In this document: piece after piece, positions 5,514-39,227 of the stretch
How the letters are laid out: each line of letters starts with the position of its first letter
Numbering within the stretch: position 1 is the stretch's first letter
Assembly: GCA_017983495.1 (NCBI GenBank)
Contig: JAGOBH010000002.1
Coordinates: forward strand, 1 to 64,000
Direction of reading: 5' to 3'
Length of the DNA: 64,000 nucleotides
Source: Pyrinomonadaceae bacterium
GTDB lineage: Bacteria; Acidobacteriota; Blastocatellia; Pyrinomonadales; Pyrinomonadaceae
Translations under genes and position numbers: made by a program
The notes under the pieces: model-generated
Databases searched by the model: none
What the model was told of the DNA's origin: nothing
Seen by the model: the letters and a program-made list of their open reading frames with translations, nothing else

Positions 5514-5942
5514 ATGTTACAGCCGAAAAAGGTCAAGCACCGAAGAGTAATGAAGGGCCGCATGCGTGGTAAGGCTACCCGCGGCGAGCAGATCAGTTTT
5601 GGTGACTTTGGACTTAAAGCACTTGAAGCCGGTTGGATCACCGACCGACAGATCGAAGCAGCTCGTATCGCGATGACACGTCACGTCAAACGCGGAGGCA
5701 AGATCTGGATCCGGATGTTCCCCGATAAGCCGATCACCAAGAAACCGGCCGAAACCCGTATGGGTAGCGGTAAGGGTGCACCCGACCACTGGGTTGCTGT
5801 GATCAAGCCCGGACGTGTGATGTATGAGATCCAGGGTGTCGACGAAGCGTTGGCACGCGAGGCGTTTCGCCTGGCAGCTCAGAAATTGCCGATCAAAACA
5901 AAATTTGTGAGCCGTGCCGATCTCGAAGGAGGCATAGTTTAG
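5514..5942 (+). CDS. rplP: 50S ribosomal protein L16
   Basis: The 142-residue product begins [18 protein letters not shown] and has [24 protein letters not shown] in part, then [18 protein letters not shown]16 helps position the A-site tRNA. The ATG at 5514 follows GGAGAAG at the end of the inverted repeat. rpmC starts only 4 bases after its stop. Confidence 0.98.
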
Positions 5943-28213: not shown

Positions 28214-29329
28214 ATGAAAGTCGACGGACTGTTCGATTCAAAACTCTTGCGATTTGGCGTCTCATTGGCGGCGGTGCTCTTAGCGACTGTTGGGTTGATG
28301 ACCATGGCCGGTCACGTCAACCTGATCACTGTTTCGCTCACTTTATTGCTCGTTGTTCTAACCACCGCAACGTTCTTTGGTCGTAACCCTGCATTGCTCG
28401 CTTCGTTTGTCGCGATGCTTTGTTTCAACTATTACTTCATCCCACCAGTCGGCACATGGCACATATCGGAATCGCAGAACCTGGTGGCATGGGCGGCGTT
28501 TACGTTGACGGCGATCATTGCGGGTGAACTTTCGGCCTATGCCAGACGACGGGCCCGTGAGGCTGAACGACTTTACGAAGAGCTCCAAAGGGCCTTCCAA
28601 GACGCAACCGAGGCGGCGGCACTCAAGCAAAGCGAGAAATTGAAATCGGCACTGCTTGATGCTGTTACTCATGATCTGAGGACACCTTTGACCTCGATCA
28701 AGGCCTCCGTAACCACGCTTCTCGACAGTGAAGGCGGGCACCGGACGATCGAACTCAGCAGCGAAGGCCGAGCCGAATTTCTGGACATCATTAACGAAGA
28801 GACGGACCGTCTGAACGGGTTTATCGAGAGCATGGTGCAGCTTGCTCGTGTTGAGGCCGGAGCGTCAGGGACGCCGGTTGCGTTTGCAAATGTTGAGGAG
28901 ATCATTACCATTGCACTGGAGCGTGCAGAAATGATCGCAGCCGGTCACCATCTGACGGTCAATGTAGAAAAAGAACTGCCGATGATTCGGGTCAACGCAC
29001 GGGCGATCGCCGAGGTCGTCTATAATTTGATCGAGAATGCGGCGAAGTATTCGCAGCCTGAAACGACGATCACTATAACTGCCGTCCAGCAAGGCAATAG
29101 CGTGCTTGTGTCGGTCGCGGACGAAGGAATAGGTATCCCGCCGGAGATGAGGGAAAAGGTCCTGGAAAAATTCGTTCGACTTGACAGTGGGCACTCGGAC
29201 GGACTTGGACTTGGCCTGGCGATCGCACGCGGTATTGTCGAAGCTCAGAACGGTAAGATCAAGATCGACTCGGGTGAGAATGAAATTGGGACAAAGGTGA
29301 CGTTGTGGCTGCCGATCGGAGAAGAATGA
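28214..29329 (+). CDS. Sensor histidine kinase, equivalent to the C-terminal half of KdpD
   Basis: The 371-residue product has four hydrophobic segments at residues about 10-105 (DUF4118 type, GRNPALLASFVAMLCFNYYF), a coiled linker, then HisKA with the phospho-acceptor His153 in VTHDLRTPLTSI, and a HATPase domain with NLIENAAKYS, DEGIGIPPEMREKVLEKF in part and GLGLGLAIARGIV. This is the layout of the last half of KdpD. It lacks the N-terminal KdpD/Usp domains, which lie in a separate gene at 38043. The ATG follows the glyS stop directly. The kdpE start overlaps its stop by 4 bases. Confidence 0.88.
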   Translation: MKVDGLFDSKLLRFGVSLAAVLLATVGLMTMAGHVNLITVSLTLLLVVLTTATFFGRNPALLASFVAMLCFNYYFIPPVGTWHISESQNLVAWAAFTLTAIIAGELSAYARRRAREAERLYEELQRAFQDATEAAALKQSEKLKSALLDAVTHDLRTPLTSIKASVTTLLDSEGGHRTIELSSEGRAEFLDIINEETDRLNGFIESMVQLARVEAGASGTPVAFANVEEIITIALERAEMIAAGHHLTVNVEKELPMIRVNARAIAEVVYNLIENAAKYSQPETTITITAVQQGNSVLVSVADEGIGIPPEMREKVLEKFVRLDSGHSDGLGLGLAIARGIVEAQNGKIKIDSGENEIGTKVTLWLPIGEE

Positions 29330-30021
29330 GCGAACCCAAGAAAGTACTAGTCGTGGATGATGAATCACAGATCACTCGGGTCTTGCGGCACAGCCTTGCC
29401 GCACACCGCTACGATGTCCGTACCGCCGCGGATGGCCTGTCTGCACTTGAGACATTTCGAGATTGGCACCCGGACCTGATAATAACGGATCTTCAGATGC
29501 CGGAGATGGACGGGATCGAACTCTGTCGCGAAATCAGAAAACTCTCAACACTGCCGATCATTGTTCTCTCGGTCAAAGGGGAAGAGAGGACGAAAGTTGC
29601 CGCTCTCGACGCCGGTGCAGACGACTATGTCTTAAAGCCGTTTGGGATCGACGAACTCTTGGCACGTGTGCGGGCCGCACTTCGTCGAACGCCCGAGCAG
29701 CCGGCGGAAAAAACGTCAAAATATGAAGACGGCGATTTTATGATCGACCCTTCGACCCGTGAGGTGGTGGTAAAAGGCGAGTCGGTACATCTGACGCCAA
29801 AGGAGTTTGACCTTCTGATATTCCTCTTTCAGAACCGAAATAGGGTGGTCACGCATCGGGCGATCCTTACGGCTGTATGGGGCGGCAATTTTACCGAGCA
29901 AACTGAATATCTGCGGGTTTTCGTTGGGCAGCTTCGCAAAAAGGTGGAAAAAGATCCATCACAGCCGCGCTATCTGCGCACGGAACCTTGGGTTGGATAC
30001 CGATTCGATCCCTTCGGCTAA
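29326..30021 (+). CDS. kdpE: Response regulator, KdpE-type
   Basis: The 231-residue product has a receiver domain with DD at residues 11-12, phospho-acceptor Asp55 ([12 protein letters not shown]) and KPF, then an OmpR/PhoB winged-helix domain ([26 protein letters not shown] in part, and [25 protein letters not shown] in part). KdpE activates kdp transcription under low potassium. ATGA overlap with the kinase gene suggests one operon. I start at ATG 29326. Its stop overlaps the end of a convergent permease gene by 4 bases. Confidence 0.9.
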
Positions 30022-31940
30022 CCGCCAACGTGGACGCTCGGCCGCAATTCGGGATCGGGCTCTGCCTGTCTCAGTATCTCTCGGGTCACCGGAGCGGTAT
30101 CGCCTTCGCCGAATAGAATGTATCGGATCATGTACTTGATCGGGTTCCCCTCGCTCCAACCAAAATAAACGTGCGGTGTCTTGGCGGTCATGTCACGTAA
30201 TTTCAATAGCAAACCTGCGATCGCATTGGGCACCGCAGGTGCGTGCGTCCTGAGGATCCGGAATCCGGCTATATCTACCCCGCTAACGTATAATTTGCCG
30301 GTAAACTCCGATGCATCGCCGATCTCGATCTCGTAAAACAATATTGGATCGCTCGCCGGAATGTGGTTATCGACGCGTTTTTCGTGTTCCTTAAACCGAT
30401 ATTCAGTTTGGTCGCCAGACTCGCGGCGGTTTGCCACAATACGGATCTCTCCCCCGGCCATGTCCTCGATAAACTGAAGAGCGGTGGAATCAAATTCGAT
30501 CTTTTGAATGCGCAGTTCGGTGGTTCGCAACACTCGCGAGACAAACGACGCGACCACGATAGCCAAAATGAAAAGCGAAGCGATCTTAATGCCATCGGGA
30601 CGCTCGACGATATTGGTGATGGTCGTGTAGGCAAAAACTAGAGCGATAAAGAGATAGATCCACTTAATGCCTTGTTTACGGACCCAGGCCGAGATGGTAA
30701 CCGCGATAGCCGCAGATGTCATCAGCACCAAAACGCCTGTCGCATATGCTCCGCCCTGAGCCTCGACATTTGCCTCGAAGATAACTGTGATCGCAAAGCA
30801 GATGACGGCGAAAATTATCACCAACGGCCGCGTGGCGCGTGCCCAGTTTGGGGCCATGCCGTATCGAGGCAGATATCGGGGCACGATATTTAGCAAGCCG
30901 GCCATTGCCGAGGCTCCGGCAAACCACAAGATCAGGATCGTACTGATGTCGTAGGCAGTGCCGAAGATCTCGCCGAGATACTCGTGAGCGAGGAAGGCAA
31001 GGGCACGGCCCGATGCTTTGCCGCCGTGTTCAAACTCGTGCGGCGGTATCAAGACGCTCGTGATGAAACTGCTGCAAATGAGAAAAAAGCTCATTATCAA
31101 CGCAGCGGTACGGAGCAGCTTTTTCGTCTTTTCGATGCGGTTCGGATTATCGATCAGCGGCATTACGGCAACGCCGGTCTCAAAGCCGGAGAGGCCGAGA
31201 GCAAGTTTTGGAAACACCAGCAACGACAATCCGATGATCATCAGTATGCTCTGTGGTGCGCCCGTTCGCGTCGTGAAGAGTGCGTTTTTCCAATTCTCCA
31301 GCGTCGACGGATCAATATAAATGTGGTACATTCCGGAGACTATCACCACCAGATTCAGAGCTAGATAGGCAATGACCAAAACGACGGCAATACCGATCGC
31401 TTCCTTAAATCCCTTTAGAAACACTGCCGCAAGCACCGTGATCATCAGCAACGTGAAAATTATAGGATGATCGAGGGCGGGAATATTCGCTTCCACGAAC
31501 GGATTATGGATCACATGCTGCGATGCGTCGGCGGCCGAAAGTGTAATGGTGATGACAAAGTCCGTGGCGACAAAACCAAGCAAAGCGAGGACGAAGAGCT
31601 TGCTTTTCCAACGCGAGAGCAAGGACTCGAGCATCGAGATCGATCCCTGTCCACGCGGGCTTTCGGTCGCTACCCGATTGTAGATAGGCAATGCTCCAAA
31701 CAGCGTCAGCATTACCAGGATAAGCGTCGCGATCGGTGACAGGACGCCTGCGGCAGCGAATGCGATGCCGGGTTGATAACCCAGAGTGGAGAAATAATCG
31801 ACACCCGTCAGACACATCACTTGCCACCAGGCGTGTTTTGGGTGATGTGCCTTCGCCGTAAATGCAGCGTCCGGTTGCCGGGCACCCTGCATTAGCCAAT
31901 TTCTAAACCCGCCCTTCGAACTGCCATTGATCGAACTCAT
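30018..31940 (-). CDS. APC-superfamily permease with C-terminal soluble domain
   Basis: The 640-residue product has about 12 hydrophobic segments over residues 30-465 and a soluble C-terminal part of some 170 residues. It starts near [16 protein letters not shown], which fits the first helix of APC permeases. The substrate is not known from sequence. Its place between kdpE and the kdp operon, and its length with a soluble tail, fit a potassium or amino acid transporter; B. subtilis KimA has a similar layout, but I see no strong resemblance. It lacks a clear Shine-Dalgarno; a hairpin lies upstream. Confidence 0.75.
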
Positions 31941-31952
31941 AAAACATAATTA

Positions 31953-31981
31953 AGGCACGGCCACCCGAAATGACCGCGCCT
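31953..31981 (-). promoter_or_regulatory. Leader hairpin upstream of the APC permease
   Basis: On the minus strand AGGCGCGGTCA pairs with TGGCCGTGCCT (11 positions, all paired counting two G-T) around a 7-base loop. It ends 12 bases before the ATG at 31940. There is no Shine-Dalgarno between hairpin and ATG. No known riboswitch was recognised. Confidence 0.6.
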
Positions 31982-32038
31982 CGTTTGCTCAGATGCTGAA
32001 TACTCCACACAGAACACTCATAGCTTATCTCCGTCTAT

Positions 32039-32071
32039 GTAAAGATTCCGTAAAGAAGTCGTAAAAAAATC
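32039..32071. promoter_or_regulatory. Tandem 11-bp direct repeats, candidate KdpE operator
   Basis: Three copies with an exact 11-bp period: GTAAAGATTCC (32039), GTAAAGAAGTC (32050) and GTAAAAAAATC (32061). Two more copies with the same period lie inverted at 32111-32131 (ATAAAAAGTTC then GTAAAGATT on the minus strand). OmpR-family regulators bind tandem sites of about 10-11 bp, so this fits KdpE acting on both divergent genes. The assignment is an inference. Confidence 0.6.
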
Positions 32072-32208
32072 ATAATGGAAGATCCGAACACCGGCGAAAC
32101 AGCAGGCGCAAATCTTTACGAACTTTTTATGCAAGCCTTACTCATTTCTTAGCGCGCCGAGAGTAATCTCAGAACTGTCAGGCCCCAAAGAGCCTCACGG
32201 AGGACACG

Positions 32209-32508
32209 ATGAATAGCGATGAAAAAGTTAACACGAGCAGGATCGAGGCTTCGGCCAGAGAGAATAGCCGTTCAGCATATCGACTGAGGCGCTCAATTTT
32301 GAGCCCGTTATTGTGTTCGGTGCTAGCGACAATGGGCTTATTCGGAGGCATTTCAGCACTGTTCAGCGGCCTTATTTGTGTGATCCTCCATGCCCTCGTG
32401 AACAATGACACCGCGTTTGACAGTGTCGGTACAGTATTACTCATATCAGCGATACCGATGATCCTCATTGGTTCAATATTCTTAGACGAGATCGAGAAAA
32501 GTAAATGA
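32209..32508 (+). CDS. Small membrane protein at the start of the kdp operon
   Basis: The 99-residue product has a basic N-terminus and two hydrophobic segments, about residues 30-62 (SPLLCSVLATMGLFGG ...) and 72-93 (VGTVLLISAIPMILIG). The family is not recognised. GGAGG at 32199 is the ribosome binding site. It overlaps the next gene by 4 bases (ATGA), and the KdpE-like repeats lie about 140 bases upstream, so it is probably the first gene of the kdp transcript. Confidence 0.7.
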   Translation: MNSDEKVNTSRIEASARENSRSAYRLRRSILSPLLCSVLATMGLFGGISALFSGLICVILHALVNNDTAFDSVGTVLLISAIPMILIGSIFLDEIEKSK

Positions 32509-33206
32509 ATAGGCCAATAGTTTGCGTGGCGATCCTGCTTGGATCTGCAATTTTTGTCAGCGCTCAACAGACGATATTTAACGTTCCAACGACCGATGTC
32601 CTCGGTCGTGGACAGGTTTATGTGGAGTTCGATGCGGCATTTAAGGTGGATAAGACCAATCAGTACGGACGGTTTTCGAGCTTTGTGCCGAGGGTCGTCG
32701 TCGGTCTTGGCGGCAATGTCGAAGTTGGGTTGAATGTGTCAGGCAATATACAGCCGGGAAGCGATTCGACAGTTCTCGTTCCAAGTGTCAAATGGAAGTT
32801 TTTCGAAAACAAGAAAAAGGATACGGCGTTGATCGCCGGGACGAATATTTATATTCCTATACGAAATCGAAGCTACACCGCCGGAACCTACTCGTACCTT
32901 GCGGTCAGCAAAACGATCAATAAGACGCGATTAACCGCCGGCGGATATGTAGCTAGCAAGAATGTTCTTGCACCGACGGCGGTTCGGACCGGGGGACTAT
33001 TTGGAGTTGAACAATCGATAAATAGTAAATTCTCAATTGCTGCGGATTGGATCAGCGGCAGGCATGCGGCGGGGTATTTCACTCCGGGCGTCATTTATAA
33101 GCCGCATCCCAAAGTTACGACCTATTTTTCATACTCGATCGGAAATGACCAGGCAGCAAAGGGAAACCACTATTTCCTTTTTGAACTTGGCTACAACTTT
33201 AACTGA
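32505..33206 (+). CDS. Outer membrane beta-barrel protein in the kdp operon
   Basis: The 233-residue product has a signal peptide (residues 1-20, cleaved near VSAQ) and then alternating strands typical of an outer-membrane barrel (VYVEFDAAFKV, VVVGLGGNVEVGLNVSG, TTYFSYSIGND, FLFELGYNFN). The last residue is Asn preceded by Phe, near the usual aromatic end signal. The family was not recognised. Its place before kdpF suggests a porin that lets potassium through the outer membrane; this is inference. Confidence 0.7.
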   Translation: MNRPIVCVAILLGSAIFVSAQQTIFNVPTTDVLGRGQVYVEFDAAFKVDKTNQYGRFSSFVPRVVVGLGGNVEVGLNVSGNIQPGSDSTVLVPSVKWKFFENKKKDTALIAGTNIYIPIRNRSYTAGTYSYLAVSKTINKTRLTAGGYVASKNVLAPTAVRTGGLFGVEQSINSKFSIAADWISGRHAAGYFTPGVIYKPHPKVTTYFSYSIGNDQAAKGNHYFLFELGYNFN

Positions 33207-33324: not shown

Positions 33325-33410
33325 GTTGGGAATCTGTGTTGGCGTCGGCGTGTGCCGCCGCCCTAATGATCTATTTGGTTTACGCGCTATTACGCCCTGA
33401 AAGATTTTAA
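33321..33410 (+). CDS. kdpF: Potassium-transporting ATPase subunit KdpF
   Basis: The 29-residue single-helix product ends in LVYALLRPERF, the hallmark of KdpF (YLVYALLRPE). KdpF stabilises the KdpABC complex in the inner membrane. Its TAA shares one base with the kdpA ATG, so translation is probably coupled. It starts with ATG 33321, overlapping the small ORF before it. Confidence 0.9.
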   Translation: MSWESVLASACAAALMIYLVYALLRPERF

Positions 33411-35218
33411 TGGCTATGACAATCAACGGAGTATTACAAATTATTGCGTTTATCGTCGCGATCGCACTGCTCACAAAACCGATGGGGATGTTTCTCGTGC
33501 AGGTATACGACGGCGGCAAGACCTTTCTCGACTTTGCCATTAAACCGGTTGAGAAGATGATCTATCGGTTGACCCGGGTGGATCCGGCTATAGAGATGAA
33601 CTGGAAGAAATACGGCATCGCTATGTTGTTGTTCAGTCTCGTGTCGACGCTTGTTCTTTATGCGCTGCAGCGGTTTCAGTACTCTTTACCGCTCAATCCG
33701 CAGGAGATGTCGGGTCTCTCGGAGCATTTGTCCTTCAATACGGCGGTTTCGTTTGTGACCAATACAAACTGGCAATCGTACGGCGGCGAATCAACGATGA
33801 GCTATCTGACGCAAGTGGCGGGATTGGGGGTGCAGAACTTTAAGTCCGCAGCCGTCGGCATGGCCCTGGCCGCGGCATTTATCCGCGGCATTTCGCGTTT
33901 TGAGACCGATAAGCTCGGTAACTTTTGGGTCGACCTGACACGGGGAACGCTATATGTGCTGCTGCCATTCTCATTCGTTGCGGCTATTTTCTTTGTCTCC
34001 CAGGGCGTTGTCCAAAATTTCAAGCCGTATGACACGGCACAGATGATCGATGTGAGAACCATCCAGGTAGAAAAGAAGGACGCTGACGGCACGGTTGTAA
34101 AAGATGAAAAAGGCGAGAGCGTAAAGCAAGACCTTATCGTAGATGCACAGACGATCGCCCAAGGACCGGTCGCGTCGCAACTTGCGATAAAGATGCTCGG
34201 CACTAATGGCGGCGGATTTTTTAACGCCAATTCGGCACATCCTTATGAAAATCCGACTCCGTTCTCGAATTTTGTACAGATGCTGCTCATCTTTCTGATT
34301 CCCGCGGGCTTTACATACATGCTTGGCAGAATGGTCAGATCGCAGGGACATGGGTGGGCCGTATTTGGAGCGATGGCGTTACTGTTCATAGTCGGTGTTA
34401 CGACGTTGTATTGGGCCGAGTCGCGGGGAAATCCACTGTATCCGACGACTGTCGATCAACAGGTTGTCGGCGGCAATTTTGAGGGAAAGGAAGTGCGGTT
34501 CGGGGTCGCGAACTCGGCACTGTTTGCGACCGTTACGACCGACGCCTCGTGCGGCGCCGTCAACTCAATGCATGACAGCTTTACGCCGATCGGCGGACTT
34601 GTGCCGCTCGTGAATATCATGCTCGGCGAGGTCATCTTTGGCGGCGTCGGCGCGGGAATGTACGGAATTCTGGTCATGATCATCCTTACGGTCTTTATCG
34701 CCGGCCTTATGGTCGGTCGCACACCGGAATATCTCGGTAAAAAGATCGAGGCTTACGATATTCAAATGGGAATGCTTTATCTACTGATCTTTCCGCTGAT
34801 AATACTCGGATTGGCCGCGATCTCGGCAGTTGCGACAGAATTTGGTCTGACATCGCTTAACAATGCAGGAGCGCATGGGTTGTCCGAGATCATCTACGCG
34901 TTTACCTCGGGAACGGGCAACAACGGTTCGGCGTTCGCAGGCCTGAACGCAAACACGCTCTGGTATAACACGACGCTTGGTGTGGCGATGTTGATCGGAA
35001 GGTTCTTTATGATCATTCCGATGCTGGCGATCGCCGGAAACCTGGCGGGCAAGAAGTTGATACCGCCGAGTTTGGGGACGTTTCCGGTCAACACGGTGCT
35101 CTTTAGCGTGTTGCTTGTGAGCATTGTGATAATCGTCGGGGCACTGACGTTCTTTCCGGCGCTGAGCTTGTCGCCGATACTCGAGCATTTCCAGATGGTT
35201 AACGGGCAAACCTTTTAG
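33410..35218 (+). CDS. kdpA: Potassium-transporting ATPase subunit KdpA
   Basis: The 602-residue product forms the potassium pore of the KdpFABC pump. It shows the family motifs [19 protein letters not shown] in part (selectivity filter region), [25 protein letters not shown] in part and [12 protein letters not shown]. About ten hydrophobic segments are seen. Length is close to the usual 560-600. It is followed by a repeat-filled gap before kdpB. Confidence 0.97.
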
Positions 35219-35291: not shown

Positions 35292-35298
35292 AAAAATA

Positions 35299-37347
35299 AT
35301 GAAAAACGCAATTTCAATTTGGGATAAGAACATAATCCAGCAGGCGGTCGCGGGTTCGATCACGAAACTCGATCCGCGGAAAATGCTGAAGAATCCGGTG
35401 ATGTTTGTGGTTGAGGCCGGAGCGACGTTTCTGACGCTGCGGATGATCGCGAATCTTATTTCGCCAACCGCCGACAGCGCTTTCGGTTTTGAGTTGCAGA
35501 TAACGCTGTGGCTTTGGTTCACGGTATTGTTTGCAAACTTTGCCGAGGCAATGGCCGAAGGACGAGGCAAGGCACAGGCGGATACGCTTCGGAAATCGAG
35601 GACCGAAACGACAGCAACATTGATCGAGGCGGATGGTACGCAGCGTTCGGTCGCCGCACCGGATCTGAGGAAAGGCGACATCGTTTATGTCGTCGCGGGT
35701 GAATTCATTCCAGGTGACGGCGAGATCGTCGAAGGCGTGGCATCGGTTGACGAATCGGCCATCACGGGCGAATCAGCACCGGTGATCCGCGAATCGGGCG
35801 GTGACCGTTCGGCAGTTACGGGCGGAACACGAGTGCTGTCGGACTGGATCAAGGTGAAGATCACGTCGAATCCGGGTGAGACATTCATCGATCGGATGAT
35901 CGCTCTGGTCGAAGGTGCCGCTCGGCAAAAGACACCAAATGAGATCGCACTAAATATTCTGCTTGCGGGTCTAACGATCGTCTTTCTGCTTGCCGTTGTG
36001 ACGTTGCAGCCGTTTGCGATCTACTCGAACGCTCCGCAAACGATCTTTGTATTGATCTCATTATTGGTCTGCCTTATCCCAACGACGATAGGCGGGTTGC
36101 TCTCAGCGATCGGCATTGCCGGTATGGATCGCCTTATTCAGCATAATGTTTTGGCCATGAGCGGCCGCGCGGTCGAAGCGGCCGGCGATGTGAATACGCT
36201 ATTGCTCGACAAAACCGGCACGATAACGCTCGGCAATCGGCAGGCGAGCGAGTTCATTCCGCTGAAGGGCATCAATGCCGAGGATTTTGCCGACGCGGCA
36301 CAGCTTTCGTCGCTGGCTGACGAAACTCCGGAGGGACGTTCGATCATCGTTTATGCGAAGGAAAAGTACGGCCTTCGGGGAAGGGAAATACACGAACTTG
36401 GAGAAGGTCGGGCCGAATTTATCGCGTTCACGGCACAAACGCGAATGTCGGGGGTCAATTTTGACGGGCGTCAGATCCGCAAAGGTGCGGTTGATGCGAT
36501 CGAGAAATACATATTAAGTGGTGGTCAGCAGTCGCCTGCCGAACTTCGCGAGGTCGTCGAACGCATCGCACGTGCGGGCGGGACGCCTCTTGTTGTAGCC
36601 GACAATCACAAGCCGCTTGGCGTCATTTATCTTAAAGACATCGTAAAAGGGGGCATGCGCGAGCGTTTCAATCAGCTTCGTCAGATGGGAATTAAGACCG
36701 TAATGATAACCGGAGACAATCCTCTGACGGCGGCTTCGATCGCGAACGAAGCGGGAGTTGACGATTTTCTTGCCGAGGCAACACCTGAAGATAAAATGGC
36801 GCTTATCAAACGCGAACAGGCCGAGGGCAAACTCGTCGCAATGACCGGCGACGGAACAAATGACGCTCCTGCGCTTGCTCAAGCCGACGTCGGCGTGGCG
36901 ATGAATACGGGAACGCAGGCTGCTAAAGAGGCCGGAAACATGGTAGACCTCGACAGCGACCCGACCAAACTGATCGAGGTCGTCGAGATCGGCAAGCAGT
37001 TGCTGATGACACGCGGAGCATTGACCACATTTTCGATCGCGAACGATGTTGCCAAATACTTCGCGATCATTCCGGCGATGTTTGCGGCGACCTTTCCGGT
37101 GCTAGACGCACTTAATATTATGGGCCTTAAGACGCCTCAATCCGCGATTCTCTCGGCGGTCATATTCAACGCTCTGGTGATAGTTGTGTTGATTCCGTTG
37201 GCACTAAAGGGTGTCAAGTATCGGCCGATGTCGGCTTCGAAACTGCTCCAAAGGAATATCCTGATCTATGGCCTTGGCGGGATCGTGGCACCGTTTATTG
37301 GAATCAAATTGATCGACCTATTGATCACGACGTTAGGGTTAGCGTAA
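35299..37347 (+). CDS. kdpB: Potassium-transporting ATPase ATP-binding subunit KdpB
   Basis: This P-type ATPase hydrolyses ATP for potassium uptake. The 682-residue product has [14 protein letters not shown], the phosphorylation site [24 protein letters not shown], and [21 protein letters not shown] in part. I choose ATG 35299 ([16 protein letters not shown]), past the word repeat; the ORF opens 69 bases earlier inside the repeat. No strong ribosome binding site is seen. Confidence 0.97.
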
Positions 37348-37366: not shown

Positions 37367-37930
37367 ATGAAAGACCTAATTACATCAGTATTAATGATCT
37401 TGATCTTTACCGTTTCACTGGGCATCTTTTATCCGCTCGCGGTTTGGGGTGTCGGGCAGGTTTTGTTCCCCTTTCAGGCGAATGGCTCGTTGATCGAGAA
37501 AGACGGCAAGGTCGTCGGCTCGGAATTGATCGGGCAGTCGTTCACATCGCCGGGGTATTTTCACTCGCGTCCGTCGGCGGCCGGCAATGGATATGACGCG
37601 TCGTCTTCCGGCGGTTCGAATCTCGGTCCGACGAGCCAAATGCTGATCGAGCGCATCTCGGCGGACACAAGAACCCTTGCCCATGAGAATCCGGGTGTGA
37701 ATATCCCCGCCGATTTGGTCACGATGAGCGGATCCGGTCTCGATCCGCATATTTCTCCGGCGTCGGCAGAATTTCAGATTCAGCGTGTCGCCAAAGCACG
37801 TGGAATGACGACAGCACAGGTCGGCGATCTTGTAAAAAGGTTTACGCGAGGGCGCGACTTTGGATTTTGGGGCGAACCGCGCGTGAACGTGCTTTTGTTG
37901 AACCTAGCTCTTGATCGTAAAGAGTTTTGA
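37367..37930 (+). CDS. kdpC: Potassium-transporting ATPase subunit KdpC
   Basis: The 187-residue product has one N-terminal transmembrane helix and the KdpC motifs [23 protein letters not shown] in part, [18 protein letters not shown] and [15 protein letters not shown]. KdpC stabilises the KdpAB complex. It follows kdpB by 19 bases. GGAGGAACG lies in the gap after it. Confidence 0.96.
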
Positions 37931-38024: not shown

Positions 38025-38042
38025 GTAGAATTGATCCAGAAT

Positions 38043-39227
38043 ATGTTTGTCGACACCGAAATTACGGAAATGCCGCACCACGAAGGTGATCGTCCGTCGC
38101 CGGAATTGCTGCTCGAGATGCTTCGCGAGAACGACCGGGCGAAGTTGCGTGTTTACATTGGTGCCGCGGCAGGTGTCGGAAAGACATATAAGATGCTCGA
38201 AGACGCTCATCAGTTGAAAGAGCAGGGCATTGACGTAGTCGTGGCAGTGGTCGAAACCCATGGCCGGGCCGAGACGGAGGATCAGATCAAGGATCTTGAG
38301 ATAATTCCGCCCAAACATATCGAATATCGCGGCAACACGTTCGACGAAATGGATCTTGCCGCCGTGATCGCTCGAAAGCCGGCCGTCGCGATCGTCGACG
38401 AACTGGCCCACACCAACATCGAAGGCTCAAAGAACGAAAAGCGGTATCAAGACGTGATCGAATTGCTCGAACACGGTATATCGATCATTACTGCGGTAAA
38501 TATTCAGCATATCGAATCGCTGAATGACGTGGTGACGAGTGCCACGGGTATTCAGGTGCGAGAGACGGTGCCGGATAGCTTTTTTAAGAATGCCGACGAG
38601 GTGATCGATGTTGACATTTCGATCGACACGCTGCGGACCCGTCTGCGCCAAGGAAAGATATACTCGGTCGAAAAGATCGAACAGGCGCTGAATAATTTTT
38701 TTCGAAAGGGAAATCTTGCGACGTTGCGTGAACTTGCACTACGACAGGTTGCCCAACAGCAGGCGATCCAGGACGAGGAATATCGTGAGCGCGAAGGGCT
38801 CCGACACGCTGTCATCCCTGAGAAAGTGATGGTCTGTATGGCATCCCGTGGAAGCGCAAAGAAGGTGCTCAGGACAGGTGCCCGGATCGCCGGACGGCTC
38901 GCAAATGAAGATTGGGCGGCGGTTTATGTCGAGACGCCTGATGAGGAACCGGGCCGGATACCTCCAGAAACATATGCCGCATTGCAGGAAAATATAAGGT
39001 TTGCGAAAGAGCTTGGGGCTAAGGTAGTTTGCCTGAAAGCCAGAAATGTCGCTGACGCATTGCTCGGTTACGCTCGCCACAACGGCATTACCCACGTCAT
39101 CTTCGGCCAATCCGCCCGCACTCGCTGGGAGATCTTTTGGCGGGGATCTATCATTAACCGCTTTCTTGCTGAGGTCAGGGATGCCGCCGTTCACGTGATC
39201 CCGATCAAAAAGGAAGGCGAAGGCTGA
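38043..39227 (+). CDS. kdpD: KdpD N-terminal half: KdpD sensor and Usp domains without kinase
   Basis: The 394-residue product has the KdpD domain with Walker A GAAAGVGKT at residues 40-48, then the motif ELAHTNIEGSKNEKRYQDV and IQHIESLND, and a Usp domain from about residue 260 ([24 protein letters not shown] ...). There is no transmembrane segment and no histidine kinase domain. In E. coli these domains are the N-terminal half of one 894-residue KdpD. Here the kinase half is encoded by a different gene at 28214. Start by ATG 38043; a TTG at 38031 is less likely. Confidence 0.9.
   Translation: MFVDTEITEMPHHEGDRPSPELLLEMLRENDRAKLRVYIGAAAGVGKTYKMLEDAHQLKEQGIDVVVAVVETHGRAETEDQIKDLEIIPPKHIEYRGNTFDEMDLAAVIARKPAVAIVDELAHTNIEGSKNEKRYQDVIELLEHGISIITAVNIQHIESLNDVVTSATGIQVRETVPDSFFKNADEVIDVDISIDTLRTRLRQGKIYSVEKIEQALNNFFRKGNLATLRELALRQVAQQQAIQDEEYREREGLRHAVIPEKVMVCMASRGSAKKVLRTGARIAGRLANEDWAAVYVETPDEEPGRIPPETYAALQENIRFAKELGAKVVCLKARNVADALLGYARHNGITHVIFGQSARTRWEIFWRGSIINRFLAEVRDAAVHVIPIKKEGEG

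Follow-up and report, generated by a model that had tools for sequence, protein, structure and literature searches.

The window, that is, the whole 64-kb stretch of DNA analysed here, contains a kdp locus in which a 268-bp intergenic gap (31941-32208) separates divergent genes. On one side of the gap lies a permease gene on the minus strand; on the other, the plus strand carries sm99, a putative outer-membrane protein gene (OM), kdpA, kdpB, kdpC and the sensor half of kdpD. The features of the region are as follows.

28214-29329, plus strand: histidine kinase with DUF4118, HisKA and HATPase domains, corresponding to the C-terminal half of KdpD (Pfam/NCBIfam)
29305-30021, plus strand: KdpE-type response regulator of the OmpR family
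30018-31940, minus strand: APC-fold permease of 640 aa without a Pfam or NCBIfam match, a putative potassium importer
31952-31982, minus strand: terminator-like hairpin in the permease leader
32022-32076, minus strand: predicted permease-facing promoter of the KdpE type, with units ATTAT (32076-32072), TTTAC (32065-32061), TTTAC (32054-32050) and TTTAC (32043-32039) and the −10-like TAAGCT (32027-32022)
32115-32169, plus strand: predicted kdp-facing promoter of the KdpE type, with units TTTAC (32115-32119), TTTAT (32126-32130), CTTAC (32137-32141) and CTTAG (32148-32152) and the −10-like TAATCT (32164-32169)
32209-32508, plus strand: sm99, a small membrane protein, the first kdp-side gene, with GGAGG at 32199-32203
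32505-33206, plus strand: putative outer-membrane protein of 233 aa with a signal peptide-like start, overlapping sm99 by 4 bases
33410-35218, plus strand: kdpA
35296-37347, plus strand: kdpB
37367-37930, plus strand: kdpC
38031-39227, plus strand: N-terminal sensor half of KdpD (KdpD Pfam domain; best NCBIfam match KdpD_non_kinase, below its cut-off)

KdpD is split in the window: the sensor half forms the last kdp gene, and the kinase half is located beyond the permease together with the KdpE-type regulator. A single-chain KdpD is not encoded here, the sensor half (38031-39227) and the kinase half (28214-29329) being separate genes. The passages of PMC5716572 that deal with the kdp genes of Deinococcus radiodurans describe the same division, with the sensor half in the kdp operon and the kinase half plus the response regulator in a separate unit; the kdp region of that organism differs in having a 38-bp T-rich gap and no permease, and these passages do not describe a four-unit box of the kind reported below. 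An Rfam scan of 28-40 kb of the window gave no credible match.

The initial annotation had pointed to three tandem 11-bp repeats and an inverted pair in the divergent gap. The three repeats are real: GTAAAGATTCC, GTAAAGAAGTC and GTAAAAAAATC begin at 32039, 32050 and 32061, exactly 11 bp apart, and the gap also contains the inverted copy CTTTACGAACTTTTTATG. The 11-bp repeats and the inversion thus stood, but the tally of three plus two did not, as the gap holds four units plus four. ATTAT (32076-32072, minus strand) is the fourth, weaker unit of the permease-facing box, and the supposed pair belongs to a second complete box of the putative promoter, facing the kdp side. The design, (YTTAY-N6)x4 with an exact 11-bp step, occurs in two divergent copies 38 bp apart, and the whole feature, both −10-like hexamers included, spans 32022-32169. 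Both boxes match YTTAY x4 at 19 of 20 letters, and in a step scan they do so only at step 11, other steps giving at most 15. In 20,000 dinucleotide-shuffled versions of the 268-bp gap, a score of 19 was never reached, and the next best box score anywhere in the 64-kb window was 16. The 11-bp repeats are not a product of chance.

Downstream of the units, a second element is held at a fixed distance. Of 31 boxes from relatives, picked by their units alone, 29 have the hexamer TANNNT beginning 49 bp downstream of the first base of unit 1, and every other offset was found in at most two. The natural reading of this hexamer is that of a −10 element. A simple sigma-70 promoter scan returned one match, at neither promoter, as would be expected if regulator half-sites replaced the −35 element. 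The repeats are predicted to form two back-to-back promoters of one conserved design, very probably activated by KdpE. Genome-wide statements rest on pattern searches of the 4.0-Mb genome. A triple pattern with up to three mismatches matched only within the gap (31941-32208), and the box plus −10 pattern with up to two mismatches gave exactly two sites, both in the gap. A looser four-unit pattern without the −10 element was discarded as too permissive on its own, with 5 matches against 10 for the controls in the same genome at three mismatches.

The repeat, which the initial annotation had marked for comparison with relatives, does recur there: the box plus −10 pattern was found at 47 sites in 60 related genomes, compared with no matches of the reversed-pattern controls. 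Both boxes are retained in the same gap in three genomes (G031, G004 and G033) and are weakened in a fourth (G035). A KdpE orthologue, defined by an E value of at most 1e-60, was found in 32 of the 60 genomes; 30 of these carry the box, in comparison to 2 of the 28 genomes lacking the orthologue (Fisher p = 2e-12, an optimistic value, as the genomes are not phylogenetically independent). The two KdpE-negative genomes (G012 and G053) have matches with two mismatches each and no potassium gene nearby, and these matches look like chance occurrences. Two KdpE-bearing genomes (G042 and G035) possess variant boxes missed by the strict pattern. In another family of the phylum, related boxes were noticed at four loci (L273-L276), apparently with a different spacing to a −10-like element; some of them are located near KdpE and KdpD-sensor genes.

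It is conceivable that KdpE binds here but that the two boxes act as one looped or shared element, for example repressing one side, and not as independent activated promoters. The boxes are indeed divergent and only 38 bp apart, and KdpE is known to repress kdp in S. aureus (PMC5401905). However, every box has its own −10 element at the fixed offset, and most relatives show just one box, placed in front of a single transcription unit, so that we consider this arrangement improbable.

The regulator predicted to occupy the boxes is encoded at the same locus. It contains receiver (PF00072) and winged-helix (PF00486) domains, and its best NCBIfam match is KdpE; because its score lies below the equivalog cut-off (216 vs. 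325 bits), we refer to it as KdpE-type rather than KdpE proper. Its residues D62 (the phospho-acceptor), R204, R211 and T226 correspond to D52, R193, R200 and T215 of E. coli KdpE, which requires the last three to bind DNA. Because TTnAC-like half-sites spaced by 11 bp are common to OmpR-family regulators, the motif by itself does not identify KdpE. In E. coli, KdpE binds TTTATA-N5-TTTACA (PMC3264566), and comparison with the MG1655 kdpFABC promoter revealed the same TTTA-type half-sites, 11-bp step and orientation to the gene, both boxes of the window likewise reading TTTAY towards their genes. In E. coli, two half-sites lie at −72 to −50, whereas each box of the window has four, ending 11 bp before the −10 element; the boxes are nearer to the −10 element, and the activation geometry differs from that studied in E. 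coli. A further difference is that the window pairs two such promoters in divergent orientation, one of which would serve a permease. In M. smegmatis, a 22-bp KdpE site was defined by DNase I and gel-shift experiments and judged by the authors to be unlike other KdpE sites (PMC5401905). The reverse complement of this site, GGCCTTGATGGTTTCTTTACGG, agrees with the permease box of genome G033 at 17 of 22 positions (0 of 5,000 shuffles) and with the window's own permease box at 15 of 22 (5 of 5,000 shuffles), although the M. smegmatis site comprises about two units and belongs to a SigF promoter.

Another regulator of the OmpR/PhoB family, for example of the phosphate-responsive PhoB type, might bind the boxes instead, their proximity to kdpDE being incidental. 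In Pho-box promoters, the sites of PhoB, tandem 11-bp direct repeats replace the −35 element upstream of the −10 element. The boxes of the window resemble them in exactly this arrangement, but the Pho half-site is of the CTGTCAT type, and the boxes of the window show no apparent link to phosphate genes. The genome encodes four further full-length OmpR-type homologues (31-39% identity), a half-site spacing of 11 bp is general for the OmpR family, with a case of 7 + 4 bp given in PMC4832192, and E. coli Kdp is linked to phosphate limitation (PMC5458449). Against such a regulator, the box tracks the KdpE orthologue genome by genome (30 of 32 vs. 2 of 28), nearly all boxes adjoin a KdpE gene or precede a potassium importer, and the only two sites of the window's own genome sit in this gap. 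We regard the involvement of another regulator as very unlikely. Still weaker is the idea that chance or the base composition of an AT-rich gap produced the repeat: the units are rich in A+T, and the window has a G+C content of 52.6%, but this explanation is already refuted by the 20,000 shuffles, the restriction to step 11, the conservation across families and the 47 sites against no control matches. The proposal of the initial annotation that the half-sites serve KdpE for both divergent genes is supported by the comparative evidence, namely the half-site itself, the conserved residues, the co-occurrence and the targets.

The targets of KdpE-type boxes in relatives are diverse. The box precedes kdpABC units, homologues of KimA (E 1e-155 against the solved KimA of B. 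subtilis, with further loci), Kup (four loci matching PF02705 at E about 1e-190, and one more) and permeases of the window type. A second unassigned permease type, the roughly 800-aa AA_permease_2 protein, is encoded directly 3′ of the box at four loci (L085, L117, L224 and L225) and is a candidate for a further potassium importer; at one locus of this type, no KdpE match was found within the 9-kb stretch. KdpA was not matched in 14 of the KdpE-bearing genomes, a set that includes incomplete drafts, and the box is still present in 13 of these 14. It is missing from the permease orthologues that are flanked by glyS and the CCA-adding gene and have no kdpDE nearby (L064 and L070-L075). The presence of the box before importers and its absence at the kdpDE-less permeases indicate that the promoter goes with the regulator and with potassium import rather than with the permease as such.

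Two further proteins accompany these promoters. The first gene after the box often encodes a small membrane protein of about 95-110 aa, whichever importer follows (Kdp, Kup, KimA or the permeases); an sm99-like first gene was seen at six loci (L216, L217, L218, L221, L229 and L117) besides the window (32209-32508), and it could be a KdpF-like or regulatory subunit. The putative 233-aa outer-membrane protein is encoded under the box promoter in kdp as well as KimA clusters (in the window and at L220, L221 and L267). A search for its family returned no match, and structure prediction without an alignment gave a pLDDT of 32, a useless model; a potassium-responsive outer-membrane channel is one possible identity.

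The identity of the permease was examined separately. It had no match in Pfam or NCBIfam even at E 5, no sequence match among solved structures, the KimA chains included, and none to K_trans. Profile comparison by hhalign aligned it with KimA homologues over about 300 columns (probability 90.5%, E 1.3e-6) and gave a probability of 1.6% for Kup. For its AlphaFold2 model (pLDDT 86.7), KimA chains are the best full-length fold matches among the families listed in the fold search (Z 39-41), though at an rmsd of about 14 Å, and amino-acid transporters come close behind (Z about 36) with the membrane domain alone. D36 and Y43 are essential in KimA (PMC6994465); by spacing they correspond to D48 and Y55 of the permease, both invariant in 51 homologues. 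KimA and Kup genes share the box promoter with the permease in relatives but differ from it in sequence, as the permease matches neither KimA chains nor K_trans, and since the sequence tests failed, we do not class it as a KUP/KimA member.

Homologues of the permease adjoin kdp genes in Streptomyces. Furthermore, c-di-AMP riboswitches (RF00379) lie directly upstream of seven homologues (L112, at 5767-5941, G005, G009, G013, G024, G029 and G040). Riboswitches of this class are typical of potassium importers and would represent a second, independent potassium-linked control of the permease family. The same promoter before different potassium importers in relatives, backed by the riboswitches of the seven homologues and the full-length KimA-like predicted fold, suggests that the permease is probably a potassium importer.

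The permease leader may contain a further control element. The hairpin at 31952-31982 (minus strand) shows six covarying base pairs among 11 sequences and is also found before the permease homologues of L009-L015 and L018-L024. It occurs even at loci lacking the KdpE box and may act as an attenuator. In more distant permease homologues (L080, L101, L104, L105 and L112), hairpins resembling terminators likewise precede the start codon.

Overall, two divergent, activator-dependent KdpE promoters, one for the sm99-kdp unit and one for the permease, are the best explanation of the gap, and we hold this reading with high confidence. According to the proposed mechanism, each promoter would offer four 11-bp half-sites to two dimers of the adjacent KdpE-type regulator, with the downstream half-sites standing in for the −35 element and the TANNNT −10 element in fixed register. 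When potassium is low, KdpE would be phosphorylated by the split KdpD kinase; the phosphorylated regulator would fill the half-sites and recruit RNA polymerase, so that both sm99-OM-kdpABC-kdpD(sensor) and, in the opposite direction, the permease gene would be turned on. From the sequence comparisons we infer the binding of KdpE, activation rather than repression, the response to potassium and potassium as the substrate of the permease.

Targets of KdpE have been footprinted in few species (four by the count of PMC5401905), all at kdp genes, and these sites were described as mutually unlike. One motif with a fixed −10 register would unify them, and the box plus −10 motif predicts a regulon by sequence alone. 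It also offers a functional assignment for permeases now unannotated or labelled “amino acid permease,” namely the permease of the window and the AA_permease_2 type of G044, G037, G048 and L117. Judged against the open-access papers searched, what is new is the four-unit architecture with its −10 element in fixed register, the interchangeability of the transporters placed under it and the proposed importer role of the permease. In a broader sense, we favour with moderate confidence the view that the KdpDE system of this class of Acidobacteriota serves as a potassium-starvation module not tied to any one transporter, which would place one four-unit promoter on whichever importer is present (KdpABC, KimA, Kup or the two unrecognised permease types), and that the 640-aa permease belongs to a hitherto unrecognised potassium-importer family, common in cyanobacteria and actinobacteria as well.
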